Below the pieces are notes generated by a model that saw nothing but the letters and a program-made list of their open reading frames with translations, was not told the DNA's origin and ran no database searches. Source: Zestosphaera sp. (GTDB lineage Archaea > Thermoproteota > Thermoprotei_A > Sulfolobales > NBVN01). From it: a stretch of DNA of 64,000 bases. The stretch is from the NCBI GenBank assembly GCA_038727705.1, contig JAVYVJ010000001.1:1-64000 (forward strand), in the 5' to 3' direction. The stretch's first letter is position 1. The number at the start of each line of letters is the position of its first letter. Positions 14,055 through 40,429 of the stretch are shown here, in pieces. The position numbers were made by a program, and so were the translations under genes.

Positions 14055-14561
14055 CTATGGTTTAAACCATTTTAAAGCTATATAGGTTATCATGCCCGAC
14101 TGGTAGGTCATCGCTAGTATCAGCTCCTTCCTCACGCTGTGTGAGAGCCTCCCCCAACTGATTAAGTCGCCAGGCTCTATGACCTGCCCGTATTTAAGCA
14201 CCTTAACTAGGTACGGTGCGTGCTCTAGCCCGGGTTTCCTCCTGTAGAGGGCGAAGTCGGTGCCGTACTTGAGTGCAGACCTTATGATGAATCCTGAATC
14301 CTTTAACTCCCTGAAGGTCCTGTAGAGATCGTCGAACTCGGGTATGTGCTCCCGACACATCGCCCTGAAGTCCTCGAGGCTCAGCTCCTCAGAGCCTCTG
14401 AACACCCTCAGAACCCCCTTCTCCGCCAGGTAGTAGGCCTCGATGAGGGAGAGCTCGAGGGGCTTGTCGACCTCCTCAACGTCCTTAGGCTTCTTAACCC
14501 CTACAGGCTTCCCGATGAAGCTCGTGCTGAAAATGCATCTGGCCAGATCTACGTTGAACAC
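14055..14561 (-). CDS. endA: tRNA splicing endonuclease EndA, start region disrupted
   Basis: Homologue of the archaeal tRNA-intron endonuclease. The catalytic domain is intact: Tyr in KYGTDFALY, His in GLEHAPYLV and Lys in SVRKELILA. The only in-frame start is GTG 14561, but the codons upstream keep coding AYLIGSKAIV, which matches the family N-terminus (compare LLVGSKVLV in Sulfolobus). An ATG at 14588 is present but one base out of frame with that segment. Either a base is missing in the sequence or the first strand has been lost. Lies 56 bases after the PhoU-like gene. Confidence 0.88.
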   Translation of the reverse strand: MFNVDLARCIFSTSFIGKPVGVKKPKDVEEVDKPLELSLIEAYYLAEKGVLRVFRGSEELSLEDFRAMCREHIPEFDDLYRTFRELKDSGFIIRSALKYGTDFALYRRKPGLEHAPYLVKVLKYGQVIEPGDLISWGRLSHSVRKELILAMTYQSGMITYIALKWFKP

Positions 14562-14616
14562 TATGGCCTTAGAACCTATTAAGTAGGCATCGCCGCTGCC
14601 ACAACTCCTGAGAACC

Positions 14617-15318
14617 CTATCTGTGGAGTGAGATGAGCCTGAGATTCGTCCCCACCCTCTTAAGTATGTCCGCAGAGTCCTCGAGTTTGTCCGTCAGTTC
14701 CTTAAGGAGGAGTAGAGCCCCCACATCGCTTGAGTAGTTCTTTATTATCTCGAGCCCTAGCTCCCTGTAGATCTCGTCCACGCTGTTCTCCAAGCCTACC
14801 TCCCTCTGGAAGAGCTCCTTAACCGCTTTGAGGTTGTTCAGCTTACCCAGCATGTCCACCACTATAGCTATCATCTCCAGGATCTTCCTTATCGTCGAGT
14901 CGAGGTACACGTACATGCTGTCAGGCATTTTGTCGAATCCCTTAGTGACTAGGAGCAGGCACCTGTTGGCCGCCGCCTCACCGTGCTCCGCCAGCCTGAC
15001 GACGCTTTGAATTATATCTATGTAGATGTTCTCCATAGCTAACGCGGGCGAGACCCTGACCACGTAGTCGAATAGGTTCATAGCCCCCTCCTCGACCTCG
15101 TCCTTAATTAGGTGGACCCTGCCGTGCATCTTCTCGATGCCGACTTTATTGAGGTCGTCCAGCTCCTTCAGGAGGGTCTGCAACTCCCTGTATAGGTCTG
15201 CAGACCTCCTCATCAGAGCTATGAGCTGTTCGGTGATCGCTGACTCAGCCAGGCTTTCCCTCTCCCCACGTCCAGGCACCTCATCGATCCTTATACTCTC
15301 CTCGGCCAAAATGACCAC
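14617..15318 (-). CDS. PhoU/DUF47-like helical protein
   Basis: A 233-residue all-helical protein resembling DUF47/PhoU phosphate-transport regulators (two repeats of long helices; MHGRVHLIKDEVEEGAMNLFDYVVRV, then LDSTIRKILEMIAIVVDML). DUF47 proteins usually accompany PiT-type phosphate permeases, but none is adjacent. It is one of three PhoU-type proteins in this window. Start GTG 15318. The TATA-like stretch in 15330-15355 (rich in ttaaaatatact) fits a promoter for it. Confidence 0.65.
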   Translation of the reverse strand: MVILAEESIRIDEVPGRGERESLAESAITEQLIALMRRSADLYRELQTLLKELDDLNKVGIEKMHGRVHLIKDEVEEGAMNLFDYVVRVSPALAMENIYIDIIQSVVRLAEHGEAAANRCLLLVTKGFDKMPDSMYVYLDSTIRKILEMIAIVVDMLGKLNNLKAVKELFQREVGLENSVDEIYRELGLEIIKNYSSDVGALLLLKELTDKLEDSADILKRVGTNLRLISLHR

Positions 15319-15412: not shown

Positions 15413-15835
15413 TCACGTGCCGGGCTCCTGGCTAAGGCTCTTCAGCGCTTTAGACGCCACCGCGCTTAACTCCCTGAGCTTCGTTAGCTCACCGTCTATG
15501 AACGCCACCTCCTCACTCATCCCCTCCCTCAGCAGGTAGTCCTTGATGTCGTTTAACACCTCCTCCTCATCACCTATCGACACCATCAGCGCGAACGTTA
15601 TCAGGGTCTGAATGGGTTCGACGAACTCTTTACCCATGCCCGGCGAGCTGCACGACTCTATGCTGCGCTTCAAACCACTCCTGGTCCTGCTGACTTTAGC
15701 GATGTAGTCCTTAACCACGTCGTAGGAGACCCTCCGATTGAGGAGGCCTTCAGCCAACTCCCTCAGCCTGGCTAGCTCCCTATCCCTCTTGAGGGTGCTG
15801 TCCTCAAGCTTCCTCAGGATCAGTGGGCCCTCCAT
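15413..15835 (-). CDS. Hypothetical helical protein
   Basis: A 140-residue charged helical protein (LKRDRELARLRELAEGLLNRRVSYDVVKDYI) with no recognised family. It starts at 15835 sharing a base with the stop of the preceding gene, so the two form a coupled pair that may act together. Confidence 0.6.
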   Translation of the reverse strand: MEGPLILRKLEDSTLKRDRELARLRELAEGLLNRRVSYDVVKDYIAKVSRTRSGLKRSIESCSSPGMGKEFVEPIQTLITFALMVSIGDEEEVLNDIKDYLLREGMSEEVAFIDGELTKLRELSAVASKALKSLSQEPGT

Positions 15836-16188
15836 CAGGCCGACCTCACGGTGGCCATGGAGTTATCGGCCACCCCGTTCCTCCTCATGAAATCCTCGTT
15901 GGCCCGAACCTCATTCTCCGGGAGCTCCTCAGACGTCAGGGCCTTAAGAATCAACTTCCTGCCGGAGACCGAGAGCTGGACACTGTCCTTAATACCTAGC
16001 TCGTCGGCCAGTCTGCGGGCGATCTGGAGAACCCCTTCAGGGACGTCGTCCCCAAGCCTTACCCTGACCCTCCTCTCCAGAACCCTCTTCACCCCCTTAC
16101 CCAGGACCTCGCTGGCTGGAGGTATTATGGCGACCAGCTGCCTGACGTCCCTCTTCTGAGTTTGTTGCGAACCGCCCTCATCGCTCAG
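15835..16188 (-). CDS. Hypothetical protein, probable CTG start
   Basis: Coding capacity extends upstream of the first canonical start (GTG 16092) through residues such as DEGGSQQTQKRDV and LVAIIPPASEVLGKG with no ATG, GTG or TTG. A GGTGGT ribosome-binding sequence lies six bases before an in-frame CTG at 16188, and a TATA box (rc of 16220-16233) predicts a transcript starting near 16201. I therefore place the start at CTG 16188 (117 residues). The C-terminal part (GVLQIARRLADELGIKDSVQLSVSGRKLILKAL) resembles an AbrB-like beta hairpin but is not firmly assigned. Using GTG 16092 gives 85 residues. Confidence 0.5.
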   Translation of the reverse strand: MSDEGGSQQTQKRDVRQLVAIIPPASEVLGKGVKRVLERRVRVRLGDDVPEGVLQIARRLADELGIKDSVQLSVSGRKLILKALTSEELPENEVRANEDFMRRNGVADNSMATVRSA

Positions 16189-16260
16189 TTGGTACCACCA
16201 AAAAGTAATAGGTGTCTTAAGATAATATAAAGCCGCTATGTAGTGACCGTTAGCTAAGTG

Positions 16261-28007: not shown

Positions 28008-28018
28008 ATTTTTAAATT
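28008..28018 (+). promoter_or_regulatory. TATA box for KaiC-like gene
   Basis: atttttaaatt is centred at 28013, so transcription should start near 28039, only seven bases before the in-frame ATA at 28046 that I take as the probable start codon of the downstream gene. Confidence 0.5.
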
Positions 28019-28045
28019 CAGAATGGAACTCTATTATTAGAGGCG

Positions 28046-29452
28046 ATATCGCTGGAGCCTTTCATCCTAGGTATTGAGGCTTTAGATAAGCTCCTCGGGA
28101 ACTTTATAGTGCCTCCGTACGTCATGATTGTGGCCGGCCACCCGGGTTCCGGTAAGACTACGCTAGCCTCAACTATCTGCTACCACAACGCCTTAAGGGG
28201 TCATAAGTGCATCTACATCTCCTTCCAGGAGGATAAGGAGAAGCTCTTCACGTTCATGGGTAGGTTGGGCTTGGACTTAAGGGGTGTAGAGGCTAAGGGC
28301 CTCTTCAAGTTCATCAGGATCCCGGTGACGCTCGACATGGAGTCTTCAGTCGAGATGCTGAAGCTCATCGGCATGGAGGGCTACGACATAGTGGTGGTTG
28401 ACTCCATTAACGCGTTGCTAGCTTCCGTAGGGGATGACGCCGCTAAGAGGGCCTGGCTTCAGAACTACTTCTACAACCTGCCCCAAGTGACGAACGGTCT
28501 GGGGGTACTCATCGCGGAGGTACCCTACGGGCAGGAGGGGGTTCAGTTAGGGGGGATAGAGTTCGTCGCCGACGCGATTCTCGTGATGAAGCATCGGATT
28601 GAGGACGAGTTCCTCGTGAGGCTCCTCGAAGTCAGGAAGGTCAGGGGCGCGCCGGCGTCGCTGGCTGAAGTGCCGTTCACGATAAGTGGGGGCAGGGGCA
28701 TTGAGGTCATGGTACCGCCCGTGCTTGAGGACGTAGCGCTTGAGAGCGGGGAGGCGAGGGTGACGTGTGATGTACTCAGGAAGACTCTTAACCATCTGCA
28801 CAGAGGGCAAGTGGTGAACTTCGTGCACCCGCCTGACTCAGACCACCCGGAGCTGCTGACGCTCCTCCTCAGCATAGCAGTGGAGAACGGCATGAGGGTG
28901 CTGATCATAAGCTATAGATACACTAAAGAAGTGTTGAAGGAATCCATCGTGAGGACGCTCACAGCGCACGGCATTGATTCGAAGACTGCTGAAGAGATAG
29001 TGAACAGGTATGTGGTGTTCAGAGGGATTAACCCCTTCTCCTACAACGAGACCCAGTTAGTCGCAAAGGAACTGGAGCTGGTTGACAGCGCGGACGCCGA
29101 CATTGTAGTGTTCCACAGCGTGTGCCTGGTGAGGCATTTGACAGACATAGCCAAACACGTCAAGGACCTGTACAACCAGATGAACTACCTGAGGAACCGC
29201 GGCAAGCTCGTGGCCCGCATAGGGGCGTTCACAGACGACCTGACATACAGACTCGAATCAAGAGTCGCGGATGCAGTGATGAGATTCGAGCATGAAGGCG
29301 GCAACGTAGGGAAGATAGGTTACAAGGCATTCATCTCGAGGAGAAACAGGAAGCCCTGCATAGTAACGCAGAATGAAATGGAGGAATGTTTCGCAGAGGC
29401 CGTCAAGTCTATTAAGGCTAAACTCCTCGAGGGTAAGGTGTCCAAGCAATAG
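28046..29452 (+). CDS. KaiC-like RecA-family ATPase, probable ATA or CTG start
   Basis: A two-part RecA-superfamily ATPase: P-loop GHPGSGKTT, Walker B DIVVVDSINALL, then a second degenerate domain (VNFVHPPDSDHPELLTLLL, MRVLIISY). The first canonical start is GTG 28109, but in-frame codons before it encode EPFILGIEALDKLLGNFIVPP, which is exactly the conserved KaiC opening (TGxxxLDxLLGGGIP). The frame between the stop at 28013 and 28109 has no ATG, GTG or TTG. With transcription starting near 28039, ATA 28046 (or CTG 28052) is the likely initiator. Without the extension the protein begins nine residues before the P-loop. Cellular role unknown. Confidence 0.75.
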   Translation: MSLEPFILGIEALDKLLGNFIVPPYVMIVAGHPGSGKTTLASTICYHNALRGHKCIYISFQEDKEKLFTFMGRLGLDLRGVEAKGLFKFIRIPVTLDMESSVEMLKLIGMEGYDIVVVDSINALLASVGDDAAKRAWLQNYFYNLPQVTNGLGVLIAEVPYGQEGVQLGGIEFVADAILVMKHRIEDEFLVRLLEVRKVRGAPASLAEVPFTISGGRGIEVMVPPVLEDVALESGEARVTCDVLRKTLNHLHRGQVVNFVHPPDSDHPELLTLLLSIAVENGMRVLIISYRYTKEVLKESIVRTLTAHGIDSKTAEEIVNRYVVFRGINPFSYNETQLVAKELELVDSADADIVVFHSVCLVRHLTDIAKHVKDLYNQMNYLRNRGKLVARIGAFTDDLTYRLESRVADAVMRFEHEGGNVGKIGYKAFISRRNRKPCIVTQNEMEECFAEAVKSIKAKLLEGKVSKQ

Positions 29453-29523
29453 ATAGGGACAACGTGCTAAAGGACGGCTACAGCATCCGATTCCCTCCAC
29501 GACCCTGAAGGGCAGGACTTATC

Positions 29524-31347
29524 CTAAAGGGATTCGGGAGGGGCTGGTGTGGAGGTAGGCTGGGATATCGAACTCCTATGAAAGCCCAGCCCCCTCAGCA
29601 GAACCCTTCCGGGGCGGGCGCCCGTGAGCTTGCCGTTCTCAACCGCTACCACGCCGTTGACTATTACGTACTTCACCCCTCCTGGGGGTTGTCTGGGGTC
29701 GCCCTCATCCGGGTGGTTCAGCTCTTCAAGTCTGAACACTACTATGTCGGCGTAGTGGCCCGGCCTGATGAGACCCCTCCTCTCTAGACCCATCCTGCTG
29801 GCTTGGATGCTCGTTATCTTCATGACGGCCTCCTCTATGGTCAGTAGCCTCCTATCTAGGACGAACCTCTTGATGAACCGCGGGAAGCAGCCGTACGTGT
29901 TGGGATGCGGCAGGTAGTGTGGTGGGGCCTTCATGCCCCACTTCATGCCTAGGAGGAACGTGTCCGTGACTACTGCTGAGAGCCTGTGCTTCACGAGCTC
30001 CTCCAGTGCGGCCTCGTGGATCTCCAGCATCCTCGTAACCTCGACCTCCGTCGCGGGGTCTTGCGTCAGGATCTCCAGCACGGAGTCGATTATGTCCTTA
30101 CCCAGTTTTTTGGAGGCGTCGTCCAGGGTTAGGCCCGCAATGCCTGGAACCCCACTCTTCAATATGATTATGTACTTGGCCTGCTCGGCCAGCAGGGGTG
30201 GGTTGAGTGAATACACCTTCCCTTCAAGTATGCTTTTCCTAACCTCCTCCCTGTAGTCCCGGGCTTTCAGCAGATGCCCCAGCCTATCCAGGCTCCCTGC
30301 CTCGCGGAGCCACGGGGCTAGGAGTGACGCGAGGTAGCGTATCTTGAACACACCCCCGGTCTCAGTTGGGATCACGTCGAAGCCCACGTCAAGCCCGGAC
30401 TCGCGGGCCCTCTCAATCACCTTCACCGTCTCGCGCGCGGCAACCCTCCAAACCTCATCGTTGTCTGGGTAGACTGTGTAACCTGGCAGTAGGTGTGAGA
30501 CCTCAACCCTCACACCGGCCCTCCTACCGATCTCCACGGCTTCCTGAACCCCCTCGATCTTCCGCGGCAGGCCTCCTGAGGAGGCCTTCCGGATCCCGGT
30601 CCTCCTCCAGTGTGTGGAGTACACGCCCCCGTACCTGGCGACTACCGTGGCGAGCTCGACGATCTCGTCGGTGTCGGCGTGCGCCCCCGGCTCGTAGTCC
30701 AGGCCTGTGGAGAGTCCTATGGCCCCCGCCTCCATGGCTTCCTCAACGAGCCTCTTCATCTCCTCGACCTCCTCCCGGGTGGCCTTCCTCCTGTAGTCCC
30801 TGCCCATGACCTGCGCCCTAACCGTGTTGTGCCCTACGTGGACGGCCAGGTTCACCCCTATGCCCACGCCCTTAAGTACCTCCACGTACTCGCGGAAGCT
30901 ACCCCACCTAACATCTAGGCCTAACTCCTCCTTCAGGAGGGGTTTGACCTCCTCCAGCGGGAGGACGACGGAGTCCGGATAGTACTTGTACGGGTGGAGC
31001 TTTAGGAAGACGTCCTCATCCCAGAAGCTCCAGAGCCACCATCCATGGAGAGGGGCTGGGGAGTACCCGCAATTACCCCCTACGCCCGTAGTTATTCCCT
31101 GGAGTAGTGCGCTCTCAGCCGACGGATGCATGAGCACCGTCTCATCGAAGTGGCTGTGCACATCTATAAACCCCGGTGCTGCGTAGAGCCCTGCAGCGTC
31201 TATAACCCTCTCAGCATCTAGGCCGCGGCACTCCTCCCCCCTACCTACGAAGGCTATTCTGTCGCCCTCCACAACCACGCATCCCCTGAAGGGGGGTTCC
31301 CCAGAACCGTCTACGACCGTGCACCCGCTTATGAGTATTGAGTTCAT
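29524..31347 (-). CDS. N-acyl-D-amino-acid deacylase-like amidohydrolase
   Basis: A 607-residue amidohydrolase-superfamily enzyme: VDGSGEPPFRGCVVVEGDRIAFVG, APGFIDVHSHFDE (metal-binding HxH), ITTGVGGNCGYSPAP (the NCG motif typical of D-aminoacylases), AIGLSTGLDYEPG, STHWRRTG, VEVSHLLPG and the C-terminal HYADIVVF. Such enzymes release D-amino acids from N-acyl forms and would fit with peptide import. Length exceeds bacterial homologues (about 500) by a C-terminal tail and inserts. Start ATG 31347. Confidence 0.88.
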   Translation of the reverse strand: MNSILISGCTVVDGSGEPPFRGCVVVEGDRIAFVGRGEECRGLDAERVIDAAGLYAAPGFIDVHSHFDETVLMHPSAESALLQGITTGVGGNCGYSPAPLHGWWLWSFWDEDVFLKLHPYKYYPDSVVLPLEEVKPLLKEELGLDVRWGSFREYVEVLKGVGIGVNLAVHVGHNTVRAQVMGRDYRRKATREEVEEMKRLVEEAMEAGAIGLSTGLDYEPGAHADTDEIVELATVVARYGGVYSTHWRRTGIRKASSGGLPRKIEGVQEAVEIGRRAGVRVEVSHLLPGYTVYPDNDEVWRVAARETVKVIERARESGLDVGFDVIPTETGGVFKIRYLASLLAPWLREAGSLDRLGHLLKARDYREEVRKSILEGKVYSLNPPLLAEQAKYIIILKSGVPGIAGLTLDDASKKLGKDIIDSVLEILTQDPATEVEVTRMLEIHEAALEELVKHRLSAVVTDTFLLGMKWGMKAPPHYLPHPNTYGCFPRFIKRFVLDRRLLTIEEAVMKITSIQASRMGLERRGLIRPGHYADIVVFRLEELNHPDEGDPRQPPGGVKYVIVNGVVAVENGKLTGARPGRVLLRGLGFHRSSISQPTSTPAPPESL

Positions 31348-31476
31348 GCCGTAACGCCCGGGCTATATATATCGGGGGCGCAAATATAAAACCACGCCCT
31401 AATTAAGGGTGGGTGAATACACAAAACCCTCCCCACCTACCGGCCCTACGTCTTCAGTGTGTTGGGGTGGCTGAAG

Positions 31477-31515
31477 CTTTATAAGGGTGCACTAATTTAT
31501 ATTAAGGGTGCACTA
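31477..31515 (+). promoter_or_regulatory. cbiM promoter with two copies of TAAGGGTGCACTA
   Basis: The 13-mer TAAGGGTGCACTA occurs at 31482-31494 and 31503-31515, exactly 21 bp apart, that is two helical turns. The first copy overlaps the TATA box CTTTATAAG (31477-31485); the second covers the predicted transcript start (about 31506) and ends two bases before the ATG. The core GTGCAC is itself palindromic. This is the geometry of an operator for a metal-responsive repressor; the regulator is not identified. Confidence 0.55.
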
Positions 31516-31517
31516 GC

Positions 31518-32132
31518 ATGCACGTGCCGGACGGGTACCTCTCCCCAGCGGTCGCGGGGGCTTCGCTGGCCGTGGTGCTGGCGGTTCTGCTCCTCTCGGT
31601 ACGCACGGTCTCAAGGGGTGGGGTGCTGGACAGGGAGAGAATGTCGCTCTTCACGACGCTGAGCGCCAGCATTTTCGTGGCTCAGATGCTGGCGTGGCCG
31701 ATACCCGGAGGCACTAGCCTTCACTTGGTCGGCGGGGCTTTAGCGGGCATCATGCTGGGTCCTTGGTTGGGCACGCTCTCCATGTCCTTAGTGCTCCTGG
31801 TGCAGACTTTTGTTTTTCACGACGGCGGGATAACTTCAATCGGCGCTAACGTGCTGAACATGGGCGTCATAGCCGTCCTCGCGGGCTACGTAGCGTTTAA
31901 GGCGGTTATGAAGCTCGGTCGGAGGGCTTGGTTGGCGGGGTTCGTCGCTGGTTGGCTTAGCTTGGCGCTCGCCGGGCTTGCGTGCGGGGTTGAGTTGAGC
32001 GTCTCTTGGGGTTCAATCCTGCCGACGTACATTATGATGTTCTGGCACGCAGTTCTCGGGCTCGTCGAGGGGGTTATAACGGGCTCTGTGGTCAGCTACC
32101 TACGCCTCAAGTCGCCTGGGATTGTGGGGTGA
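31518..32132 (+). CDS. cbiM: Cobalt/nickel ECF importer S-component CbiM
   Basis: A 204-residue membrane protein with the invariant N-terminal metal-binding MHVPDGYLSP (the amino terminus and His2 coordinate Co/Ni), about six helices, and HLVGGALAGIMLGPWLGTL. First gene of an importer operon cbiM-pdgle-cbiQ-cbiO. Whether it carries Co or Ni cannot be told. ATG 31518 is fixed by the need for His at position 2. Confidence 0.95.
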   Translation: MHVPDGYLSPAVAGASLAVVLAVLLLSVRTVSRGGVLDRERMSLFTTLSASIFVAQMLAWPIPGGTSLHLVGGALAGIMLGPWLGTLSMSLVLLVQTFVFHDGGITSIGANVLNMGVIAVLAGYVAFKAVMKLGRRAWLAGFVAGWLSLALAGLACGVELSVSWGSILPTYIMMFWHAVLGLVEGVITGSVVSYLRLKSPGIVG

Positions 32133-32134
32133 TC

Positions 32135-32416
32135 GTGACGCTCTCGCGTAAGTCGCTCATCATGTTGGCGGTTCTCCTCCTCGCCAGCCCTGTCTTCGGG
32201 GTTATCCTAGCTGAAGAGCTGAGCTACCGTGAGCCGCTGGACTTAGTGGCTGAGGAGCTCGGGTTGAGTGAGGCTGGGGTCGAGTGGACGCCGTTTAGGG
32301 ATTACGCAGTCCCCGGAGTCCCTAAGGCGGTGGGGTACGTGATTGCCGGGGTTCTAGGCACTGCGGTGATCGTGCTTACATGCTACATTCTGAGGAAGGC
32401 GCTGAGGGTTGGGTGA
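32135..32416 (+). CDS. PDGLE-domain protein, CbiN-like accessory of the importer
   Basis: A 93-residue protein with an N-terminal helix or signal anchor (SLIMLAVLLLASPVFGVILA), the PDGLE-type motif (AGVEWTPFRDYAVPGVPKAVGYVIAG) and a C-terminal membrane helix. In many nickel/cobalt ECF systems this takes the place of CbiN. Start GTG 32135 or GTG 32129; the latter overlaps the cbiM stop. The long upstream frame starting at 32006 is a shadow of cbiM. Confidence 0.8.
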   Translation: MTLSRKSLIMLAVLLLASPVFGVILAEELSYREPLDLVAEELGLSEAGVEWTPFRDYAVPGVPKAVGYVIAGVLGTAVIVLTCYILRKALRVG

Positions 32417-33173
32417 GGGCTTGAGCACCGGGATAATCAGGAAGTTCTTCGAGTCGGCTTCAGAGGTGCTTGACGTTGTGGGTATGCAGGGAGGCGGTGA
32501 GGCCACACACGCCTTCATGTTAGCATCGCTCGCGATCATCGTCTTGACTTCATTCACGTCGAGCTGGTGCGTCGTGTTTCTCACGTTCATCGCCTCAACC
32601 ACCTTGTTGCTCGCCACGAACAACTTGAGGAAGCACTTAAGGAGGGCTGCGTCAGCGCTTGTGTACGTACTGGCGTTCTCCCTAGTAGCTCTATCGCGCA
32701 TTCTTTTTGAAGGCTCCGCACCCCTCTACCTGCTTTACGTGCTGAGGGCCACGAGCGCGGCGAGCTTCCTGCTGGCGATGACGGCCGTCCTTGGATGGAA
32801 GGGGTTGGCTGACTTCCTCAGCAAGCTTAGGCTAGGTGGAATCGCGTTAACTTTGGTTGTGTGTGTTGGGTTGATCCCGACGCTGCTGAGGGACGCCTCC
32901 AGGGCGTTGTTGGGCAGGGAGGCACGCATCCTGAGGAGGCCAGGACTTAAGGACCTACCTGCGTACGCTGCGGTGGTCGGCGACCTGCTCGTAAGAGGTA
33001 GTGAGAGGGGTGGGAGAACGCTCTTGGCCTTGAACGCCAGAACGCTCACCGCAGCGTACGGAGCGTCAAGTCAAGGCGGGCGGTGGGGGATCACGAAGCT
33101 CGACGCGCTCGCGCTGCTCATAGCCCTTGCTGAGGCACTCATTCATGTTGCGGGGGACGTCACGCCTTGGTAG
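32409..33173 (+). CDS. cbiQ: ECF importer transmembrane component CbiQ/EcfT
   Basis: A 254-residue membrane protein with several hydrophobic helices and the C-terminal cytoplasmic coupling region characteristic of EcfT (DLLVRGSERGGRTLLALNART). Fits the third position of the operon. Start TTG 32409, or TTG 32421 which has GGTGAG close upstream. Overlaps the ATPase gene by seven bases. Confidence 0.85.
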   Translation: MGEGLSTGIIRKFFESASEVLDVVGMQGGGEATHAFMLASLAIIVLTSFTSSWCVVFLTFIASTTLLLATNNLRKHLRRAASALVYVLAFSLVALSRILFEGSAPLYLLYVLRATSAASFLLAMTAVLGWKGLADFLSKLRLGGIALTLVVCVGLIPTLLRDASRALLGREARILRRPGLKDLPAYAAVVGDLLVRGSERGGRTLLALNARTLTAAYGASSQGGRWGITKLDALALLIALAEALIHVAGDVTPW

Positions 33174-33826
33174 CTAGACTTCAGTTGAGGGGTGTGTGGT
33201 TCAGGTACTCCAGGAACGAGGACTACGTCCTCAGGGGCGTTGACCTGGAGTTACGGGATTCCGAACTAGCGGTCATAACGGGGCCTAACGGATCCGGTAA
33301 AACCACCCTAATCCTCGTGGCCGCGGGGCTCCTGAAGCCCGAAGCCGGTGAGGTCCTGCTTGACGGGAGGTCAATATATGATCAACTACCGCTGGCTAGG
33401 AGGAGGATCGGCGTGACCTTCCAGAACCCTGATGACCAGTTCTTCAACGCTACGGTGTACGACGAAATCGCGTTCGCACTGAGACAGCTCGAGGGCGATG
33501 AGGGGGTGATTAGAGAGCGAGTCGCGGAAGTCGCACGCAGGTTGAGAGTGGAGCACCTACTGAGTAGACCGCCGTACAGGCTAAGCGGTGGGGAGAAGAC
33601 TAAGGTCGCGTTGGCCGCTGTGCTGATCTACAATCCGGAAATACTCCTCCTAGACGAGCCGACAGCCTACCTCACAAGAGAAAGCAAGGAGGAAGTACTC
33701 AGGGCGCTGAAGGATCTAAAGTGCTTGGGGAGGGCCGTGGCGATAACGACGAACGACCCTGAGGTAGCTAGACTCCCCGCAGACAAAACCTACACGCTAG
33801 CGAACGGCATGCTTTACCAAGCTTGA
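33167..33826 (+). CDS. cbiO: ECF importer ATPase CbiO
   Basis: A 219-residue ABC ATPase: Walker A GPNGSGKTT, Q-loop FQNPDDQFFNATVYDEIAF (the cobalt-importer signature), signature LSGGEKTKV, Walker B ILLLDEPTAYL. A single ATPase implies a homodimer motor. Start TTG 33167. Last gene of the importer operon. Confidence 0.93.
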   Translation: MVARLQLRGVWFRYSRNEDYVLRGVDLELRDSELAVITGPNGSGKTTLILVAAGLLKPEAGEVLLDGRSIYDQLPLARRRIGVTFQNPDDQFFNATVYDEIAFALRQLEGDEGVIRERVAEVARRLRVEHLLSRPPYRLSGGEKTKVALAAVLIYNPEILLLDEPTAYLTRESKEEVLRALKDLKCLGRAVAITTNDPEVARLPADKTYTLANGMLYQA

Positions 33827-33925
33827 GAAGAGTGTGGTCAATCATGTTCTGTAGTTTTAACGGTGCGGTCCGTTACAGCCTGTAGCCTGCCTGGATACGA
33901 GACACCCGGTCGCGTGGGTAATCAG

Positions 33926-33936
33926 GTTTTATTATC
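33926..33936 (+). promoter_or_regulatory. TATA box of tRNA-Arg
   Basis: GTTTTATTATC is centred at 33931, 26 bp before the first base of the tRNA, the normal position for an archaeal tRNA promoter. Confidence 0.6.
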
Positions 33937-33956
33937 TATGGTTGTATGTTTATTCG

Positions 33957-34031
33957 GGGCCCGTGGCCTAGCCAGGATAAGGCGCCGGCCTGCGGAGCCG
34001 GAGACCCCGGGTTCAAATCCCGGCGGGCCCG
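33957..34031 (+). tRNA. tRNA-Arg (anticodon GCG)
   Basis: Complete cloverleaf: acceptor GGGCCCG with CGGGCCC, D arm GCCT...AGGC, anticodon stem CCGGC/GCCGG with loop CTGCGGA (anticodon GCG at 33991-33993), T arm CCGGG TTCAAAT CCCGG, discriminator G at 34031. The bases after it read ca, so CCA is not encoded. No intron. Confidence 0.96.
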
Positions 34032-34186
34032 CATTCCTTATAAACGCTTTCAATTCTGTCTCACTATTAGCTTCCGGGTTTGATGAATCTGTGGTCGTGC
34101 AGACTTATTAACTGACATAAGTACCAGTCATTGTGATAAGTCGTTGCTCTTTGATTTAGCTCCTAAGACTTCTAGGAGGGATTTAT

Positions 34187-34726
34187 ATGTTTGATGAAGA
34201 GCTTAAAAGTCTCCATATGGGATATGAGAACGCCAGGCTTGTGGCTCTCGTGGGGCCTCGTAGGGCTGGGAAGACTAGCCTGATCCTCTCGTTTCTAGAC
34301 GAGTATAGTATTCCCCACATGTTCGTTGATTGCTGGGCAGTCCCGCTTTCGGAATACGGGGTTTCTTTCAGGAGGTTTGCGGAGGACCTCTCAAGCGCTG
34401 TTAACGCGTTTCTAGGCAAGCACGAGAGATTCGCAAGTAGGTTGCTGGGCTTCCTGAAGGGTGTTAATGGGGTTGAGGTCGATGCTTCTGTTGTCAAGAT
34501 TTTCCTGAGGTGGAGGAGGGAGAGGTTCAGCGTTGCCGCTCTTTTAGAGAGGTTGAACACGTTCGCTGGGCATCTATCGACGCCTCCGGCACCTGAGTTA
34601 ATGAGGGGGAATCAGAACGCTGGCAGGCGAGGCAGTTCCGGAGGTCTAAGTTGGCACTACTTGGACTCAAAGCCGCTGAGGGTAGTCCACGCCCTGAGTA
34701 GGAAGCACTTCTGTAGCCACCGCTAG
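34187..34726 (+). pseudogene. Truncated archaeal AAA-type ATPase (ATPase_2/MNS-like)
   Basis: The first about 125 residues look like the archaeal ATPase family with P-loop GPRRAGKTSLI, FVDCWAVPLSEYGVSFRRF and EVDASVVKIFLRWRRERFSVAALLERLN, but the Walker B, arginine finger and C-terminal winged helix expected in a 350-450-residue protein are missing. From residue 126 the sequence changes character (STPPAPELMRGNQNAGRRGSSGG...) and stops. The tail vaguely resembles TnpB C-termini, suggesting a deletion or insertion joined the two, but that is inference. Confidence 0.6.
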
Positions 34727-34867
34727 AGACTCGATCTCAAAGTGAGTCCAGCGACATACAGGATATGCCAAAGGCGTTTCAAGCTATGCAAGCACCTAAG
34801 CAGAACCCGCTGGCAACAAGTTCGGCTTTTTAGGCTGTGAAACCGACTAACGCCTGGGTGCGGTGGC

Positions 34868-35620
34868 TTGAAGGTCTTGGTGCTGTCGGACGTCCACGGC
34901 AACGCCGACGCGTTGCACTCAGTGCTTGAGGACGCTGGGGGGTGGGACTACATCTGGTTCCTAGGCGACTTAGTTGACTACGGCCCCGAGCCCCACGTAG
35001 TCATCGACTCAATCAGGGGTTTAAGACCTGAGGTAATCGTCATGGGGAACCACGACCACGCCGTAGTGACTAACGGCGACTGCATGTGCGCCCCCGAAAT
35101 GCGCGAGCTTAGTGAGTACACGCGGCTCAACATCTCCCGCAGACTCCTCAGCGAGGAGCAGGTCAAGTGGCTGAGCACCGCTCCCAGGACGCGCGAGGTC
35201 TCCGCGGGCGGGCTGAGGGTCTACGTGGCCCACGGGTCGCCTAGGAACCCGCTTTACGGATATTTAAAGCCCACCCTAACCGCTGAGGAGTTGAGGCTCG
35301 CCTTAACCCCTAGCCAGGTCGCCCTCAGGCCCAGACCGGTGAACGCCGACGTAGTCCTCACAGGACACACCCACATCCCCACCGACATTAAGGTGGACTC
35401 AATAAGGGTGCTGAACCCCGGGAGCGTCGGCCAGCCGAGGGACGGGGATCCGAGAGCTTCGTACATGATGATCGACGCAGACGGGTGGAGTGTGGAGGTC
35501 CGCAGGGTCAAGTACGACGTCACGAAGGTGGTCAGAAAGCTGAGGACGCTGAACCTAGAGGCCAAGTACGTCGCGTGGATTGAGGATATTCTGAGAAATG
35601 GTAGGATCACGACACGTTAG
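34868..35620 (+). CDS. Metallophosphoesterase (YfcE/MJ0936-like)
   Basis: A 250-residue calcineurin-like phosphoesterase with all metal motifs: LSDVHGN, FLGDLVDYGP, MGNHDHAV, VAHGSPRNP and LTGHTH, then NPGSVGQPRDGDP. Such small archaeal enzymes hydrolyse phosphodiesters or phosphomonoesters with broad specificity. Start TTG 34868 after gggtgcggtggc. It stands alone, downstream of the broken ATPase. Confidence 0.9.
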   Translation: MKVLVLSDVHGNADALHSVLEDAGGWDYIWFLGDLVDYGPEPHVVIDSIRGLRPEVIVMGNHDHAVVTNGDCMCAPEMRELSEYTRLNISRRLLSEEQVKWLSTAPRTREVSAGGLRVYVAHGSPRNPLYGYLKPTLTAEELRLALTPSQVALRPRPVNADVVLTGHTHIPTDIKVDSIRVLNPGSVGQPRDGDPRASYMMIDADGWSVEVRRVKYDVTKVVRKLRTLNLEAKYVAWIEDILRNGRITTR

Positions 35621-35702
35621 CCTTCAGAGCACTCCTGAGACGTCCAATATTGCGTACCGCATGACGCTGAAGACGATGCTATGGAGGTATGTTTTTGATG
35701 CG

Positions 35703-36926
35703 TTAGACTATGTAGTCTTCACACTTCTCTATTATCTCCACATACTTTAGCCCGTGGTCGGGTATTATGACTACCACATCGCCGTCGGCGATTAACCCAT
35801 CATTGATTGCTCTCCTCGTTGCGCTAACTACGGCGCCTCCGCTGAGACCTATCATTATCCCATCCCCTCTTGCCACGTTGATAACCCCCTCCAACGCATC
35901 CTCGAGGGTTACATCATATATTTTATCCACCCTAACCAGATGCACCCATTTCATCCCCGTCTCAATCCTCCTGATGCCAGGTATTATGGACCCTGGAGTC
36001 GGCTGGGCGCCGATGATCCTCACACGGTCTCCATATCTGTTCTTCATATAGTGGGAGATCCCTGAGAGATGTCCTGAGGTGCCAAGCCCACTCACCACGG
36101 CGGTCAGCCTTAAGCCGGCCTCCCTCGCCTGAAGCTCTATCTCCTTGGCGGTATACCTTAGGTGGGCTTCGAAGTTCAAGTCATTCTCAAACTGATTTAA
36201 GTTGAGGGCTCCGTTCCTCAAGGCGTCCTCCCTAACGTCCTCAATCATTTCAACGGTTATAGAGGCCCTCCCCCTAATTACCTCAGCCCCCAGCAACCTG
36301 AATATATAATCCACACACTGCTGAGCTGTTGAAGGTACGTAGAGTCGGGTCTTCAGTCCGTAGTTGTTTGAGAGACCAGCTAATGCCAACCCAGTGTTGG
36401 TTGAGGTGGCTTCATAGAGCTTCTTTAAGCCACTGGATCTCCTCAGGGTCTCCCTCAACATGTACCAAGCAATCCTATCCTTAATACTACAACTGAAGGG
36501 ATTATACCATTCGAGCTTAGCCCAGACCCTGAGGGAGTTGTTTGACATGCTCTTCAGGAGCACTAGTGGCGTGGGCCAGTTTCTGTACAGCAGCTCCTCA
36601 GTACTCATGAAGACGCGCGCGGGCGGAGGACTTAACTCATCGTAGAAGCCCAGGGACTCCAACGGTGTGAACAAGGATCCCTCAACATCCTCAGAACCTG
36701 CCTTCACCACGGGCACGTAAGTGCAGCCAAGCCTCCTGAGGACATCGCATAACGCATTGCCCTCAACGACGTTGTTCAATGAGTCAACCATGATCGCACC
36801 CTTCACACCGCCCGTCCTCAGGATATCCCCTGACATCTCCAAGAACTTCTTGAAATCCACTTCACTACACTTCATGGAATCAAGTCGGACGAGCCTCGCA
36901 CCCATGCGGACCACCTTTAATAACAC
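35703..36926 (-). CDS. O-phosphoserine sulfhydrylase-like cysteine synthase with extra N-terminal domain
   Basis: Residues from about 110 on are a PLP enzyme of the CysK fold: KLEWYNPFSCSIKDR with the Schiff-base lysine, TSTNTGLALAGLS substrate loop, NQFENDLNFEAHLR, SGLGTSGHLSG phosphate loop, IIPGIRRIETGMKWV and a C-terminal LSGGAVVSA. This resembles the Aeropyrum O-phosphoserine sulfhydrylase, which makes cysteine from OPS and sulfide. The first about 80 residues (VKGAIMVDSLNNVVEGNALCDVLRRLG...VPVVKAG) look like a degenerate ParB/SerK-type domain. Start GTG 36926 at the divergent promoter. First gene of the sulfur island. Confidence 0.85.
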   Translation of the reverse strand: MLLKVVRMGARLVRLDSMKCSEVDFKKFLEMSGDILRTGGVKGAIMVDSLNNVVEGNALCDVLRRLGCTYVPVVKAGSEDVEGSLFTPLESLGFYDELSPPPARVFMSTEELLYRNWPTPLVLLKSMSNNSLRVWAKLEWYNPFSCSIKDRIAWYMLRETLRRSSGLKKLYEATSTNTGLALAGLSNNYGLKTRLYVPSTAQQCVDYIFRLLGAEVIRGRASITVEMIEDVREDALRNGALNLNQFENDLNFEAHLRYTAKEIELQAREAGLRLTAVVSGLGTSGHLSGISHYMKNRYGDRVRIIGAQPTPGSIIPGIRRIETGMKWVHLVRVDKIYDVTLEDALEGVINVARGDGIMIGLSGGAVVSATRRAINDGLIADGDVVVIIPDHGLKYVEIIEKCEDYIV

Positions 36927-36965
36927 TATTATAATGTTTTTAATAAATAATACAGTTATTAAAGG
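36914..36965. promoter_or_regulatory. Perfect 11-bp inverted repeat around the divergent sulfur promoters
   Basis: CCTTTAATAAC (36914-36924) is repeated in inverse as GTTATTAAAGG (36955-36965), separated by 30 bp of AT-rich DNA that must hold both promoters (OPS sulfhydrylase to the left, E1-like gene to the right). The right arm sits just before the ATG at 36975. A dimeric or tetrameric repressor bound to both arms could control both directions. Confidence 0.5.
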
Positions 36966-36974
36966 GAGAGGAGA

Positions 36975-37799
36975 ATGGGAAAACGCTTCGATCTTCTTGA
37001 GATGTTCTCAAGGCAGCTCATAGTCAGGGAGGTAGGAGTTAACGGCCAGTTGAGACTCCTTGAAAGCAGGGTCGCTGTGATTGGGTGTGGGGCCACGGGA
37101 ACCGCGACAGTGGAACTACTTGTGAGGGCTGGGATCGGCTACGTGAGGATAATCGATAGAGATATTGTGGAATTAAGTAATATATCACGTTCGCACCTCC
37201 ACACAGTGGAAGATGCCATGGAAGCGAAACCGAAGGCTCTCAGTTGTGCTGAGAAATTAATGAAGATCAACCCATATGCGAGGATTGATTATGTTGTAAG
37301 TGAAGTCAACCCACGAAATATAGAGGATCTAGTTAAGGATGTGGACATTATAGTTGACGGAACAGACAACATGATGACTAGGTACCTGATAAATGACGCG
37401 TCCCTTAAGCTTAGTAAGCCGTGGGTTATGCAGGGAGCCAGCACTTGGTACGGACAAGTAATCCTAATAAGGCCTCGAGTTACTGCCTGCCTTAGATGTC
37501 TAATGCCTGAGCCGCCGCCGGAGGTAGGCAATGCCTGTAGTATCTTAGGAACGATGAATACAACCATTTCGCTGATTACCTCAATATCGGCTAACGAAGT
37601 CATTAAGCATATTTTAGGGCTGAGCTCAGGTGGTGAGTTAATATATGTTGACGCACTGAGGAATCAAGTAACTAAGTTTAGATTAGTTAGGAATCCCTCA
37701 TGCCCTGCCTGCTCACAAAACAAGTTGGAATTCATCACATCTCAGGAGTTTATAAGGGTTAAGAGAGTGTGGGTCCCACGCGGTTCAAGTGTATCCTGA
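36975..37799 (+). CDS. E1-like ThiF/MoeB adenylyltransferase (core domain)
   Basis: A 274-residue ubiquitin-activating-type enzyme: nucleotide loop GCGATGTATVELL (38-50), ligand Asp in VDGTDN (131), structural zinc C172/C175 and C243/C246, and the position of the thiol-accepting cysteine at C188 (GNACSILGTM). It would adenylate the C-terminus of a small ubiquitin-like sulfur carrier, which is not found in the window. The domain that normally follows the second zinc pair in this subfamily is absent here and is encoded in the next frame. Confidence 0.88.
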   Translation: MGKRFDLLEMFSRQLIVREVGVNGQLRLLESRVAVIGCGATGTATVELLVRAGIGYVRIIDRDIVELSNISRSHLHTVEDAMEAKPKALSCAEKLMKINPYARIDYVVSEVNPRNIEDLVKDVDIIVDGTDNMMTRYLINDASLKLSKPWVMQGASTWYGQVILIRPRVTACLRCLMPEPPPEVGNACSILGTMNTTISLITSISANEVIKHILGLSSGGELIYVDALRNQVTKFRLVRNPSCPACSQNKLEFITSQEFIRVKRVWVPRGSSVS

Positions 37800-38046
37800 A
37801 AAACCCGTAAATATAAACACGTGCAACGTTCAAGGGCTAAGTACTCAATCACCATGTGTTAAAGTAGTTTTGACGACGCCATATCTGCTGAAGGCACTTG
37901 TAGAAGACTATGAAGTAGTGTTATTCAATGATGGCCGGGCAATAATAAATGGATTGACGGATGGAGAACTAGCTATGAGGATATACAACGAGTTAATGAA
38001 AAACCTGTTCACGACTAACTCTAAGGCGACTCACTGTGGTTTATGA
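37789..38046 (+). CDS. C-terminal domain of the E1-like protein in a separate frame
   Basis: 85 residues starting GTG 37789 and overlapping the E1 core gene by 11 bases in the +1 frame. It contains TCNVQGL near the start and VVLFNDGRAIINGLTDGELAMRIYNELM, matching the C-terminal tail found fused to many ThiF/MoeB-like E1 enzymes (LCGxNxVQI and FPDGRAIIKGTxDxxxAxxIYxRY-like). So this is either a natural split of the E1 or a frameshift; the new frame has its own start. The segment ends in THCGL and overlaps tusA by 11 bases. Confidence 0.65.
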   Translation: MYPEKPVNINTCNVQGLSTQSPCVKVVLTTPYLLKALVEDYEVVLFNDGRAIINGLTDGELAMRIYNELMKNLFTTNSKATHCGL

Positions 38047-38272
38047 GGTCCTCGATTTAAGAGGCATCCCATGTCCAGAGCCTCTCATAAGAGTGGTGAG
38101 AGTAATTGACACACTAAGCATTGGATGCTCATTAAGGGTTCTGCTAGATAACATGGATTGCGTTAAGCTAATTAAGGAAGCTGTAGAAGGGTTTGAATTA
38201 GGGTCTGTAGAGACTATACCTGAAGGCAATAGCTTCATACTAATTATAAAGGTCGGGGACCGTGAAACATAA
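38036..38272 (+). CDS. tusA: TusA-type sulfur carrier
   Basis: A 78-residue TusA/SirA protein with the CPxP-type motif GIPCPEPLIRV, cysteine 13 being the persulfide site. TusA passes sulfur from a cysteine desulfurase to acceptors such as tRNA thiolation or molybdenum cofactor proteins. It directly follows the split E1, and convergent to it lie IscU and IscS. Confidence 0.9.
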   Translation: MVYEVLDLRGIPCPEPLIRVVRVIDTLSIGCSLRVLLDNMDCVKLIKEAVEGFELGSVETIPEGNSFILIIKVGDRET

Positions 38273-38282
38273 GCACTAACTC

Positions 38283-38528
38283 TCAAGGGTTACACTTCTT
38301 GATCCTAGCTAATAACGCATTGCCTTCTAGCCCTCTAAGAATTTCCAATACGTATCCCTTCTTCTTTAAGATAATCCTAAGCACGTCAGGAGGTAGAATA
38401 TCCTTGTAAAATACTATTTCGAAATCGTTAAGTTTTTCGTTGATCAGCTTCATTAACTTGATTACAGGGTCGCCCGTACATCCACCAACCTTATCGCTAC
38501 GTAGGTCGAAAATTCGTTCTTCATCCAT
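38283..38528 (-). CDS. TusA-like small protein with CTGDP in place of CPxP
   Basis: 81 residues. The order FDLRSDKVGGCTGDPVIKLMKLINEKLN, then VFYKDI, then ILKKKGYVLEIL follows the TusA fold (LDLRG, CPxPxxK, helix, strand, second helix, strand), but the CPxP motif is replaced by CTGDP, with cysteine 17 kept. It overlaps the end of iscU by eight bases and so belongs to the iscS-iscU transcript. Likely another sulfur carrier; no exact family is recognised. Confidence 0.6.
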   Translation of the reverse strand: MDEERIFDLRSDKVGGCTGDPVIKLMKLINEKLNDFEIVFYKDILPPDVLRIILKKKGYVLEILRGLEGNALLARIKKCNP

Positions 38529-39051
38529 CTGACTTACCTATTGACTCCTTAAATTGTCTCCCATATATTCTCTTAATGAGTTCTTCCTCCTCAACGGCCT
38601 GTCTCTCCTCGACTGTCAAGTCTGAAGGCAGCCACTCAGGCATATTGCCCACCGTGGTGTAGTAAGCCCTCACAGCCCTCTTAAGGGCTCCCACAGCAAG
38701 TATGCTGCAGTGGTACTTTATTGGTGGCAGACCACCTAACCTGTCAGAGATGTCTTTCCACTTGATACTCCAAGCCTCTCTCAAGGTCTTCCCAATTATT
38801 AAGTCTGTAAGTATGCTTGCAGCTGCTATGTTGGCAGCGCATCCATAACTCTCGAACGTTGCTTTCTCTACAACTTCTTTGTCATTTATCCTCAGGTAGA
38901 GCTTTATGACGTCGCCGCACGCAGGGCTGCCTGCCACTGACTGAACCGTCGGATTCTCCAAGGGTCCGACATTCTTCGGATTTCTAAAGTGCTTAAGCAC
39001 TTCCGGCGAGTATGGAAGCGGGATTCGCGAACTCACTTGTCTTGCCTCCAT
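38521..39051 (-). CDS. iscU: IscU/NifU-type Fe-S scaffold
   Basis: A 176-residue scaffold protein with the three cluster cysteines C45 (GSPACGDV), C71 (YGCAANIAAAS) and C115 (KYHCSILAVGAL), and the family Asp47. Its C-terminal extension after about residue 130 (WLPSDLTVEERQAVEEEEL) is common in archaeal forms. Start ATG 39051 overlaps the iscS end by 19 bases. Assembles Fe-S clusters with sulfur from IscS. Confidence 0.93.
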   Translation of the reverse strand: MEARQVSSRIPLPYSPEVLKHFRNPKNVGPLENPTVQSVAGSPACGDVIKLYLRINDKEVVEKATFESYGCAANIAAASILTDLIIGKTLREAWSIKWKDISDRLGGLPPIKYHCSILAVGALKRAVRAYYTTVGNMPEWLPSDLTVEERQAVEEEELIKRIYGRQFKESIGKSDG

Positions 39052-40298
39052 ATAACACTGTTATTTCGATAGTTATAAACTTTCTTAGGGGTTAGTGGGC
39101 TGATCTTCCTAAGCCTCTCAACGGACTTAGGCAGTACCTCAAGTGCGTACGTTATGTCGTCCTCCCTGTGATATCTTGACACCTTAAACAGTATGCTTCC
39201 ATGAGCTAACTCATACTCTCTCCCGATGGCTAGGAGGACGTGGCTGGGTTCGAGGAACCTTGAACTACATGCGCTGCCGCTCGAGACATAGACCCCGTAG
39301 TGGCTGAGCTCGACAGTGAGTGCCTCACCCTCCACATACCTGAACGAGACATTCACGTTGTCAGGGGCTCTCCTATCGCCCAGAGGCCCGTTAACTATGA
39401 CTTCACTGACCGAGCTCAAGATTCCTGTCATCAACTTATCCCTTAACCTGGTCATGTAGCTCACATTTTCCTCGAACTCGGTGAGCATCAACTCCACCGC
39501 CTTCTTGAAACCGGCTATCAGGGGAATTAATTCAACACCAGGCCAGAGCTTCTCAACGCTTAGCTGCCCCCTTACTATGGGCTCAACCCTAACGCCTTCC
39601 CCGATGTAGAGTAACCCGACCCCTCGGGGACCGTGTATCTTGTGGCTGCTTAAGGTCATCATATCAACGCCTAACTCCTTCAGGTTAACCTTTACCCTTC
39701 CGTAAGCACTGCTGGCGTCGGTGTGGATAACCGCTTCAGGACTACCGTCCCTAACTATATCCACTAAGTCCCTTAACCTTTGAATAGTCCCTATTTCGTG
39801 ATTGACTAGCTGGATGCTTACTAGCGCAGTATCCCTATCCACGTAGTACTTGAGGATTTCGGGGTCGACGGAACCCTCACCATCTACCGGAACCCTCACC
39901 ACCTTCAGTCCGAAGAGCTCCCCAATGAATTCTGCAGCAAATATGACGCTCAAGTGCTCGATGGATGAAACCAGTATCTTCTTACCTTTCAGTCTCTCCC
40001 TGTTAGCTATGACGTAGCCTTGTATGGCTAAGTTATTAGCCTCGGTGCCGCTGTGCGTGAAGATGAAGCCCTCTGGATCACCGACCTCGACAGTTTTCGA
40101 CACAAGCTCCTTAGCCTCCATAAGGAGATCTAGGGCCTCCCAGCCCGGCTTATGCGTTATCGCTGGATGGCCGTAGCCATACTTATTGAAGAAGGGCACC
40201 ATAGCCTCAACTACTTCGTCAGGCACATAGCCAGAGTTCTCCAGGTCGAAATAGACCTCCCTCGGCGGCGTGCTGTGTTCCCTCAGTAGCTCCTTAAT
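39033..40298 (-). CDS. iscS: Cysteine desulfurase IscS, probable ATT start
   Basis: PLP lysine in SSHKIHGPRGVGLLYI, sulfur-carrying cysteine in SSGSACSSRFLEPSHVLLAIG. The first canonical start (GTG 40226) begins at residue VPDEVVEAM and would cut the strand containing VYFDLENSGY, the equivalent of IYLDNAAT in IscS. In-frame codons upstream encode IKELLREHSTPPREVYFDLENSGY, with no ATG, GTG or TTG before the stop. A TATA box (rc 40322-40332) predicts transcription from about 40302, so ATT 40298 (or CTG 40286) is the likely initiator of a near-leaderless mRNA. Confidence 0.8.
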   Translation of the reverse strand: MKELLREHSTPPREVYFDLENSGYVPDEVVEAMVPFFNKYGYGHPAITHKPGWEALDLLMEAKELVSKTVEVGDPEGFIFTHSGTEANNLAIQGYVIANRERLKGKKILVSSIEHLSVIFAAEFIGELFGLKVVRVPVDGEGSVDPEILKYYVDRDTALVSIQLVNHEIGTIQRLRDLVDIVRDGSPEAVIHTDASSAYGRVKVNLKELGVDMMTLSSHKIHGPRGVGLLYIGEGVRVEPIVRGQLSVEKLWPGVELIPLIAGFKKAVELMLTEFEENVSYMTRLRDKLMTGILSSVSEVIVNGPLGDRRAPDNVNVSFRYVEGEALTVELSHYGVYVSSGSACSSRFLEPSHVLLAIGREYELAHGSILFKVSRYHREDDITYALEVLPKSVERLRKISPLTPKKVYNYRNNSVIWRQDK

Positions 40299-40302
40299 CG
40301 TA

Positions 40303-40416
40303 TTGTTGTATCACCAATAACAAATTTATAGAGGGAGTTATTAAGCGGAATCCCCAGCCTCAGTATGTTCCTTATCAATAACTAATTTATTTACTGTGAA
40401 ACAATTAGATTATTGT
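40303..40416. promoter_or_regulatory. Divergent iscS-sufS promoter region with inverted repeats
   Basis: TTGTT (40303-40307) and AACAA (40319-40323) form an inverted repeat over the iscS transcript start. ACAAT (40401-40405) and ATTGT (40412-40416) form one just upstream of the sufS start codon, near its likely transcript start, after an AT-rich TATA region (taatttatttac). Both sites have the same 5-bp core sequence family; they could be operators of one sulfur regulator. Confidence 0.35.
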
Positions 40417-40429
40417 CAGGTGTTGCACG

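Follow-up and report, generated by a model that had tools for sequence, protein, structure and literature searches.

Candidate near-cognate translation starts, mostly placed by Shine-Dalgarno motifs, in a Desulfurococcaceae-like archaeal lineage

The bacterial genes infC and pcnB start at AUU. For the archaeon Aeropyrum pernix, PMC5911459 gives the starts as 52% TTG, 28% ATG and 20% GTG. In chloroplasts, evolutionarily conserved non-AUG starts occur in certain genes (PMC9845219). Our literature search, which was not exhaustive, did not turn up AUA, ACG or CUG starts described for Desulfurococcales or Sulfolobales. Here, we analyze a window of 64,000 nucleotides (nt), the whole stretch under study, from the archaeon Zestosphaera sp. 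(genome G000; 1.59 Mb, 98.6% complete), focusing on a small conserved gene, the cysteine desulfurase gene iscS and a gene for a KaiC-like ATPase. Our findings suggest that this Desulfurococcaceae-like lineage very probably starts translation regularly not just at AUG, GUG and UUG but also at CUG, AUA, AUU and ACG, with most of these starts anchored by a Shine-Dalgarno (SD) motif.

Conserved candidate near-cognate starts and their predicted ribosome-binding sites

We compared G000 with 40 relatives, many of them available as fragmented assemblies, and refer to ATG, GTG and TTG as canonical starts and to codons one base off AUG as near-cognate. The 16S rRNA of G000 ends at its 3' side in GGATCACCTCCTTTT, which is complementary to the SD motifs GGTG, GGTGA and GAGGTG that precede the genes for Rio1, DNA ligase, LeuRS, the small protein and rpoB. 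In canonical-start genes, the spacing from the first G of GGTG to the start peaks at 10-11 nt, and the candidate near-cognate starts lie at 10-12 nt. The distances from the TATA hexamer centre to canonical starts form two groups, one of about 20-27 nt, which we assign by its spacing to a leaderless class mostly without SD, and one of about 34-40 nt, assigned to a leadered class.

The clearest of the window cases is the small gene adjoining glyS, whose predicted start is CTG. Its frame is open without a canonical codon until GTG 16092, relatives align with it as far as CTG 16188, and the orthologous protein reaches upstream of the GTG 16092 position in 40 of 41 genomes. Of 20 family genomes, 17 have CTG as the codon selected by the SD; G016 has TTG and G021 has GTG, and with all three codons the first G of GGTG lies 10-11 nt upstream. 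Since every codon at the resolved column is of the form NTG, the position behaves as a start codon rather than as an ordinary leucine; in most family genomes it is followed by serine and an acidic residue. In several relatives the SD contains an in-frame GTG, which would mislead annotation pipelines about the start.

In DNA ligase, the five species of the genus all read ACG at the start column, where 14 other family genomes have ATG, GTG or TTG. Pairwise differences among the five species, counted for codon positions 1, 2 and 3, number 27, 24 and 108 over the 22 codons after ACG and 55, 54 and 46 in the 30 nt before it, which indicates that coding constraint begins at ACG. The ACG itself is invariant in these species, third base included, while third positions elsewhere vary freely.

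The gene for the kinase Rio1 lies directly downstream of that for aIF1A (Pfam matches PF01163 and PF01176, respectively). Among 24 family genomes, its predicted start reads ATA in 18, ATT in one, GTA in one (G010) and ATG in one (G003), and is probably TTG in the remaining three. The SD spacing in these genomes is nearly always 11 nt; in most of them an in-frame stop precedes the start by 0-3 codons, and canonical codons do not appear until 5-118 codons downstream. Outside the family, apparent Rio1 starts are CTG in G031, G069, G033 and G040 and ATA in G037 and G042. Sorted by family, they appear to be CTG in f7, f8 and f10, ATA in f4 and f13, possibly ATC in f14, and ATG, TTG or GTG in f9 and f5. 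The aIF1A-Rio1 pair of G000 (locus L143, 4502-5679; G000:C1:348502-349679) shares a TGATA/TAATA stop-start overlap that is conserved in the genus, TGATA being the TGATG coupling motif with AUA replacing AUG.

Alternatively, the proteins could start at a downstream canonical codon, where gene finders would annotate them, or ribosomes could read through the in-frame stop that lies upstream. In the rpoB gene of the sister species G002, an open frame upstream indeed ends in an in-frame TGA ahead of the gene. However, the next canonical codon lies up to 118 codons within conserved domains, neither ligase nor Rio1 has a long in-register open frame upstream, and in the ligase it is at the proposed start that constraint sets in; we consider this explanation highly improbable.

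In some other genes, start codons also differ between genomes. LeuRS appears to start at ACG in G000-G003, at ATT in G005, G006, G008 and G015, probably also at ATT in G009 and G010, at GTG in G013 and at ATG in G011. Similarly, rpoB has CTG in G002 against ATG in G000 with identical SD spacing, and the next canonical codon in G002 is 101 codons on; TmcA has CTG in G000 and ATG in G002; and a CBS-domain protein has CTG after GGAGGTGA in G002 and TTG in G000. Overall, the start column of the near-cognate genes holds CTG, ATA, ATT and ACG and is thus not confined to AUG, GUG and UUG. The presence of ACG could recall the C-to-U editing by which plant organelles restore AUG in the mRNA. No single editing reaction, however, can turn CTG, ATA, ATT and ACG into ATG, and TTG and GTG replace CTG in the small gene, which leaves editing with a practically negligible probability.

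The preliminary description of the window had argued that in its three genes the coding sequence for conserved residues begins before the first canonical codon and after an in-frame stop, and we confirmed this in all three. Its placement of the small-gene start at CTG after GGTGGT was also borne out by the family-wide column. The repeated coincidence that it pointed out exceeds chance, as the same architecture recurs elsewhere in the genome and in other, independent genomes. Its central proposal, initiation at AUU, AUA and CUG, is strongly supported by conservation, although the list was incomplete and needs ACG. It also set aside the view that sequencing or assembly errors removed the normal starts of the three genes, a view that could draw on the sister-species ATG where iscS reads ACG, one base apart, and on a gene of G002 (66732-67517) that resembles a homopolymer indel. 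Nevertheless, many separately assembled genomes share the CTG of the small gene, the ATA of Rio1 and the ACG of the ligase, each at an unchanged column and spacing. This conservation already refutes the error view for the small gene and makes it very unlikely for the three together; that some odd starts appear to be kept across the whole family strongly supports a lineage trait.

Window genes and the question of leaderless mRNAs

The coordinates of the window features are collected in Table 1. In iscS, the in-frame TGA at 40311-40313 is followed by TAC AAC AAT ACG ATT AAG GAG, and no canonical codon appears before GTG 40226. The residues upstream of this GTG align with all close orthologues, and over 26 codons of this region the comparison with G002 gives 4, 2 and 15 substitutions at codon positions 1, 2 and 3, a pattern typical of coding sequence. 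The closest orthologue, that of G002 (82% identical), has ATG aligned with ACG 40301. The TATA neighbourhood is almost identical in both species, its centre lying 23 nt from the G002 ATG and, in G000, 26 nt from ACG and 29 nt from ATT. Because 26 nt falls within the leaderless range, a leaderless start at ACG 40301 is preferred, and the iscS mRNA is probably leaderless. ATT and CTG were rejected as starts, ACG being closer to the predicted transcription start and aligned with the sister ATG. In several other genera iscS begins one codon earlier, where G000 has AAT, and the assignment of ACG 40301 is for this reason held with moderate confidence. The iscS region (39033-41662) contains two class-V aminotransferase (cysteine desulfurase-like) genes that diverge from an intergenic region of about 130 bp, likewise in G002.

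Table 1. Positions of predicted genes and signals in the window.
Feature	Positions	Strand	Remarks
EndA tRNA-splicing endonuclease	14055..14621	-	no canonical start before conserved N-terminus
Small conserved gene adjoining glyS	15835..16188	-	function not assigned; predicted start CTG 16188-16186
SD GGTGGT of small gene	16194..16199	-	first G 11 nt before CTG; pairs with GGATCACCTCCTTTT
TATA box TTTATATT of small gene	16224..16231	-	hexamer centre 40 nt from CTG, leadered class
KaiC-like ATPase	28052..29452	+	best start CTG 28052; alternative ATA 28046
TATA box TTTTTAAA of KaiC-like gene	28009..28016	+	spacing predicts transcription start at about 28035-28039
SD-like GAGGCGAT of KaiC-like gene	28040..28047	+	differs from GAGGTGAT at one position; spacing to CTG 28052 is 10 nt
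iscS/nifS-type cysteine desulfurase	39033..40301	-	best start ACG 40301-40299; alternative ATT 40298
TATA box TATAAA of iscS	40325..40330	-	centre 26 nt from ACG

The frame of the KaiC-like gene follows a TAA at 28013, is open from 28016 and reaches its first canonical codon at GTG 28109, while the Pfam KaiC domain (PF06745, E 4e-32) begins at frame residue 19, upstream of that GTG. CTG 28052 lies 37-39 nt from the TATA centre and has GAGGCGAT at spacing 10, whereas ATA 28046 overlaps GAGGCGAT; we consequently assign CTG 28052 as the most likely start, with a short leader, which the promoter spacing predicts to be about 14 nt. ATA 28046 was discarded for its position inside the SD and its atypical TATA distance. 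In G001, G002 and G003, the orthologues have GTG or ATG 4-6 codons upstream of CTG 28052. The KaiC-like gene adjoins that for aIF1 (SUI1) in G001:C8, G002:C4 and G004:C53 (loci L004, L294, L295 and L233); in G000 the two genes are on separate contigs.

A fourth window gene, encoding EndA, has no ATG, GTG or TTG upstream of its conserved N-terminus in five of five species of the genus. An ACA or ATA codon lies at the stop of the upstream gene, and a clear SD was not seen there.

Given the canonical starts of relatives, the odd codons of iscS and the KaiC-like gene are not conserved, and both genes might carry recent start mutations with little or no expression in this species, the family-wide cases being genuine. 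The frame before the first canonical codon is, however, intact and constrained (as the iscS substitution pattern indicates), near-cognate codons are in use elsewhere in the lineage, and the KaiC-like CTG is preceded by an SD at the proper spacing. We judge such decay unlikely.

The preliminary description had placed the starts at AUA, AUU and CUG on leaderless mRNAs; taken as a general explanation, this would make leaderlessness the reason why non-AUG codons are allowed. The TATA boxes that it claimed are present, and its leaderless claim is compatible with the distances in iscS, at most. Its start there, ATT 40298 or CTG, gives way to ACG. For the KaiC-like gene, its alternative of CTG is retained and that of ATA falls within the SD; both this gene and the small gene, with an SD and the longer TATA distance, belong to the leadered class. 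More broadly, SD motifs stand at standard spacing before the small gene, the KaiC-like gene, ligase, Rio1, LeuRS, rpoB and TmcA, and several near-cognate genes lie directly behind another gene, so that leaderlessness is improbable as the general explanation. Canonical codons in relatives, which the same description had named as evidence against it, do occur for iscS (at the column itself) and for the KaiC-like gene (some codons upstream), but not for the small gene.

Frequency of the trait and points against it

We screened 464 kb of G000 against 395 kb of G002. An unfiltered first screen was crowded with antisense shadow ORFs (open reading frames), which were discarded through codon-position filtering and overlap competition; with these filters and the coding substitution pattern, 206-229 coding pairs remained, depending on the filter. 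In G000, conserved coding sequence precedes any canonical codon in iscS, the small gene, DNA ligase, Rio1, LeuRS, TmcA and EndA, and in G002 in ligase, Rio1, rpoB, the gene for a PstC-like permease and that for a conserved protein whose ACG also occurs in G000. This suggests near-cognate starts in roughly 2-3% of genes, probably a lower limit, as in-frame upstream GTG or TTG codons occurring by chance mask cases. The KaiC-like gene, without an orthologue in the compared stretches of G002, is counted in addition. Candidate cases are also present in G029, G031 and G040, single-contig genomes of related families.

Several observations weigh against this reading. The SD motif alone finds the aligned canonical start in just 43 of 110 and 54 of 113 genes with a strong SD, so that an SD supports a start without proving it, and in the G000 ligase the automatic SD-based picker settled on the adjacent GAG. 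The GTA of Rio1 in G010 and the gene at 128055-128711 of G002 do not resolve to a near-cognate codon, and the start of EndA is not pinned to any. Another G002 gene without a canonical start (G002:C1:66732-67517, locus L152) was rejected as a probable G-run indel, that is, an assembly error. Orthologues are not independent events, and the assemblies of relatives are often fragmented. Finally, the control genus G029/G039 (family f6) yielded two plausible cases in 109 pairs, ATT and TTA, both in G029, which indicates that the trait may be rarer there. At locus L253 of that genome (G029:C1 171236-172255, minus strand), neighbouring genes apparently start at ATT and TTA after a GGGTG-type SD. A genome-wide count of SD-anchored codons was dropped as sole evidence for being too noisy; SD motifs alone are weak evidence, and what carries the case are the in-frame stops, the lack of canonical codons, the conservation of the start column and the constraint by codon position.

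Possible initiation mechanism and relation to known systems

In the mechanism that we propose, the SD (GGTG or GAGGTGA) would pair with the 16S tail and so bring the codon, 10-11 nt downstream of the first G of GGTG, into the P site, where the ordinary initiator Met-tRNA (Met-tRNAi) would accept one mismatch; leaderless mRNA would provide a minority route, as for iscS. Beyond the architecture, conservation, spacing and coding constraint seen in the alignments, we infer the use of Met-tRNAi, methionine as the first residue and the efficiency of these starts. According to work cited in PMC6237735, aIF1 destabilised an initiation complex on a non-AUG mRNA in a Sulfolobus system, and proteins with non-AUG starts are more abundant when KsgA is lost (PMC7897474). 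Both aIF1 and KsgA are encoded in G000 and the entire genus, so loss of a fidelity factor (aIF1 or KsgA/Dim1) was ruled out as the cause.

For Rio1, we tentatively raise a further idea, which we regard as doubtful: its AUA may act as a regulatory device, with the stringency of start-codon selection (the level of aIF1/aIF1A or Met-tRNAi) tuning Rio1 synthesis and hence 30S maturation. This idea follows from the position of the AUA directly behind aIF1A, the fixed 11-nt SD spacing and its rare replacement across about 10 genera. If true, the Rio1 AUA would represent an archaeal counterpart of the AUU control of bacterial infC.

Gene finders generally accept only ATG, GTG and TTG in archaea, and this lineage therefore probably has essential proteins with mis-annotated N-termini, either truncated or extended from a GTG that belongs to the SD. 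The essential genes that appear to be affected include those for DNA ligase, RNA polymerase (rpoB, in one species) and the ribosome-maturation kinase Rio1. If the proposed initiation at near-cognate codons is confirmed, archaeal start selection would be looser, given an SD, than the textbook rule of AUG, GUG and UUG, which bears on models of aIF1, aIF1A and aIF2 fidelity common to eukaryotes. The ACG-start ligase and the AUA-start Rio1 offer ready natural substrates, and the candidates in G029, G031 and G040 mean that the trait may be testable in cultured organisms.

Compared with known archaeal initiation, SD-led or leaderless, the lineage shares the 16S tail, the SD pairing, the spacing and the two classes of mRNA; unlike initiation at AUG, GUG and UUG, it appears to use CUG, AUA, AUU and ACG, several of them conserved across genera. 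As with infC and pcnB, a translation-linked gene appears to carry a conserved non-AUG start (Rio1 behind aIF1A, ATA in 18 of 24), but here more than one or two genes are involved, and Rio1 is a kinase rather than an initiation factor, aIF1A being merely its upstream neighbour. Near-cognate initiation in eukaryotes and organelles employs the same one-mismatch codons, CUG, ACG, AUU and AUA, whereas in this free-living archaeon they are SD-positioned, stand in housekeeping genes and would serve as the only start.

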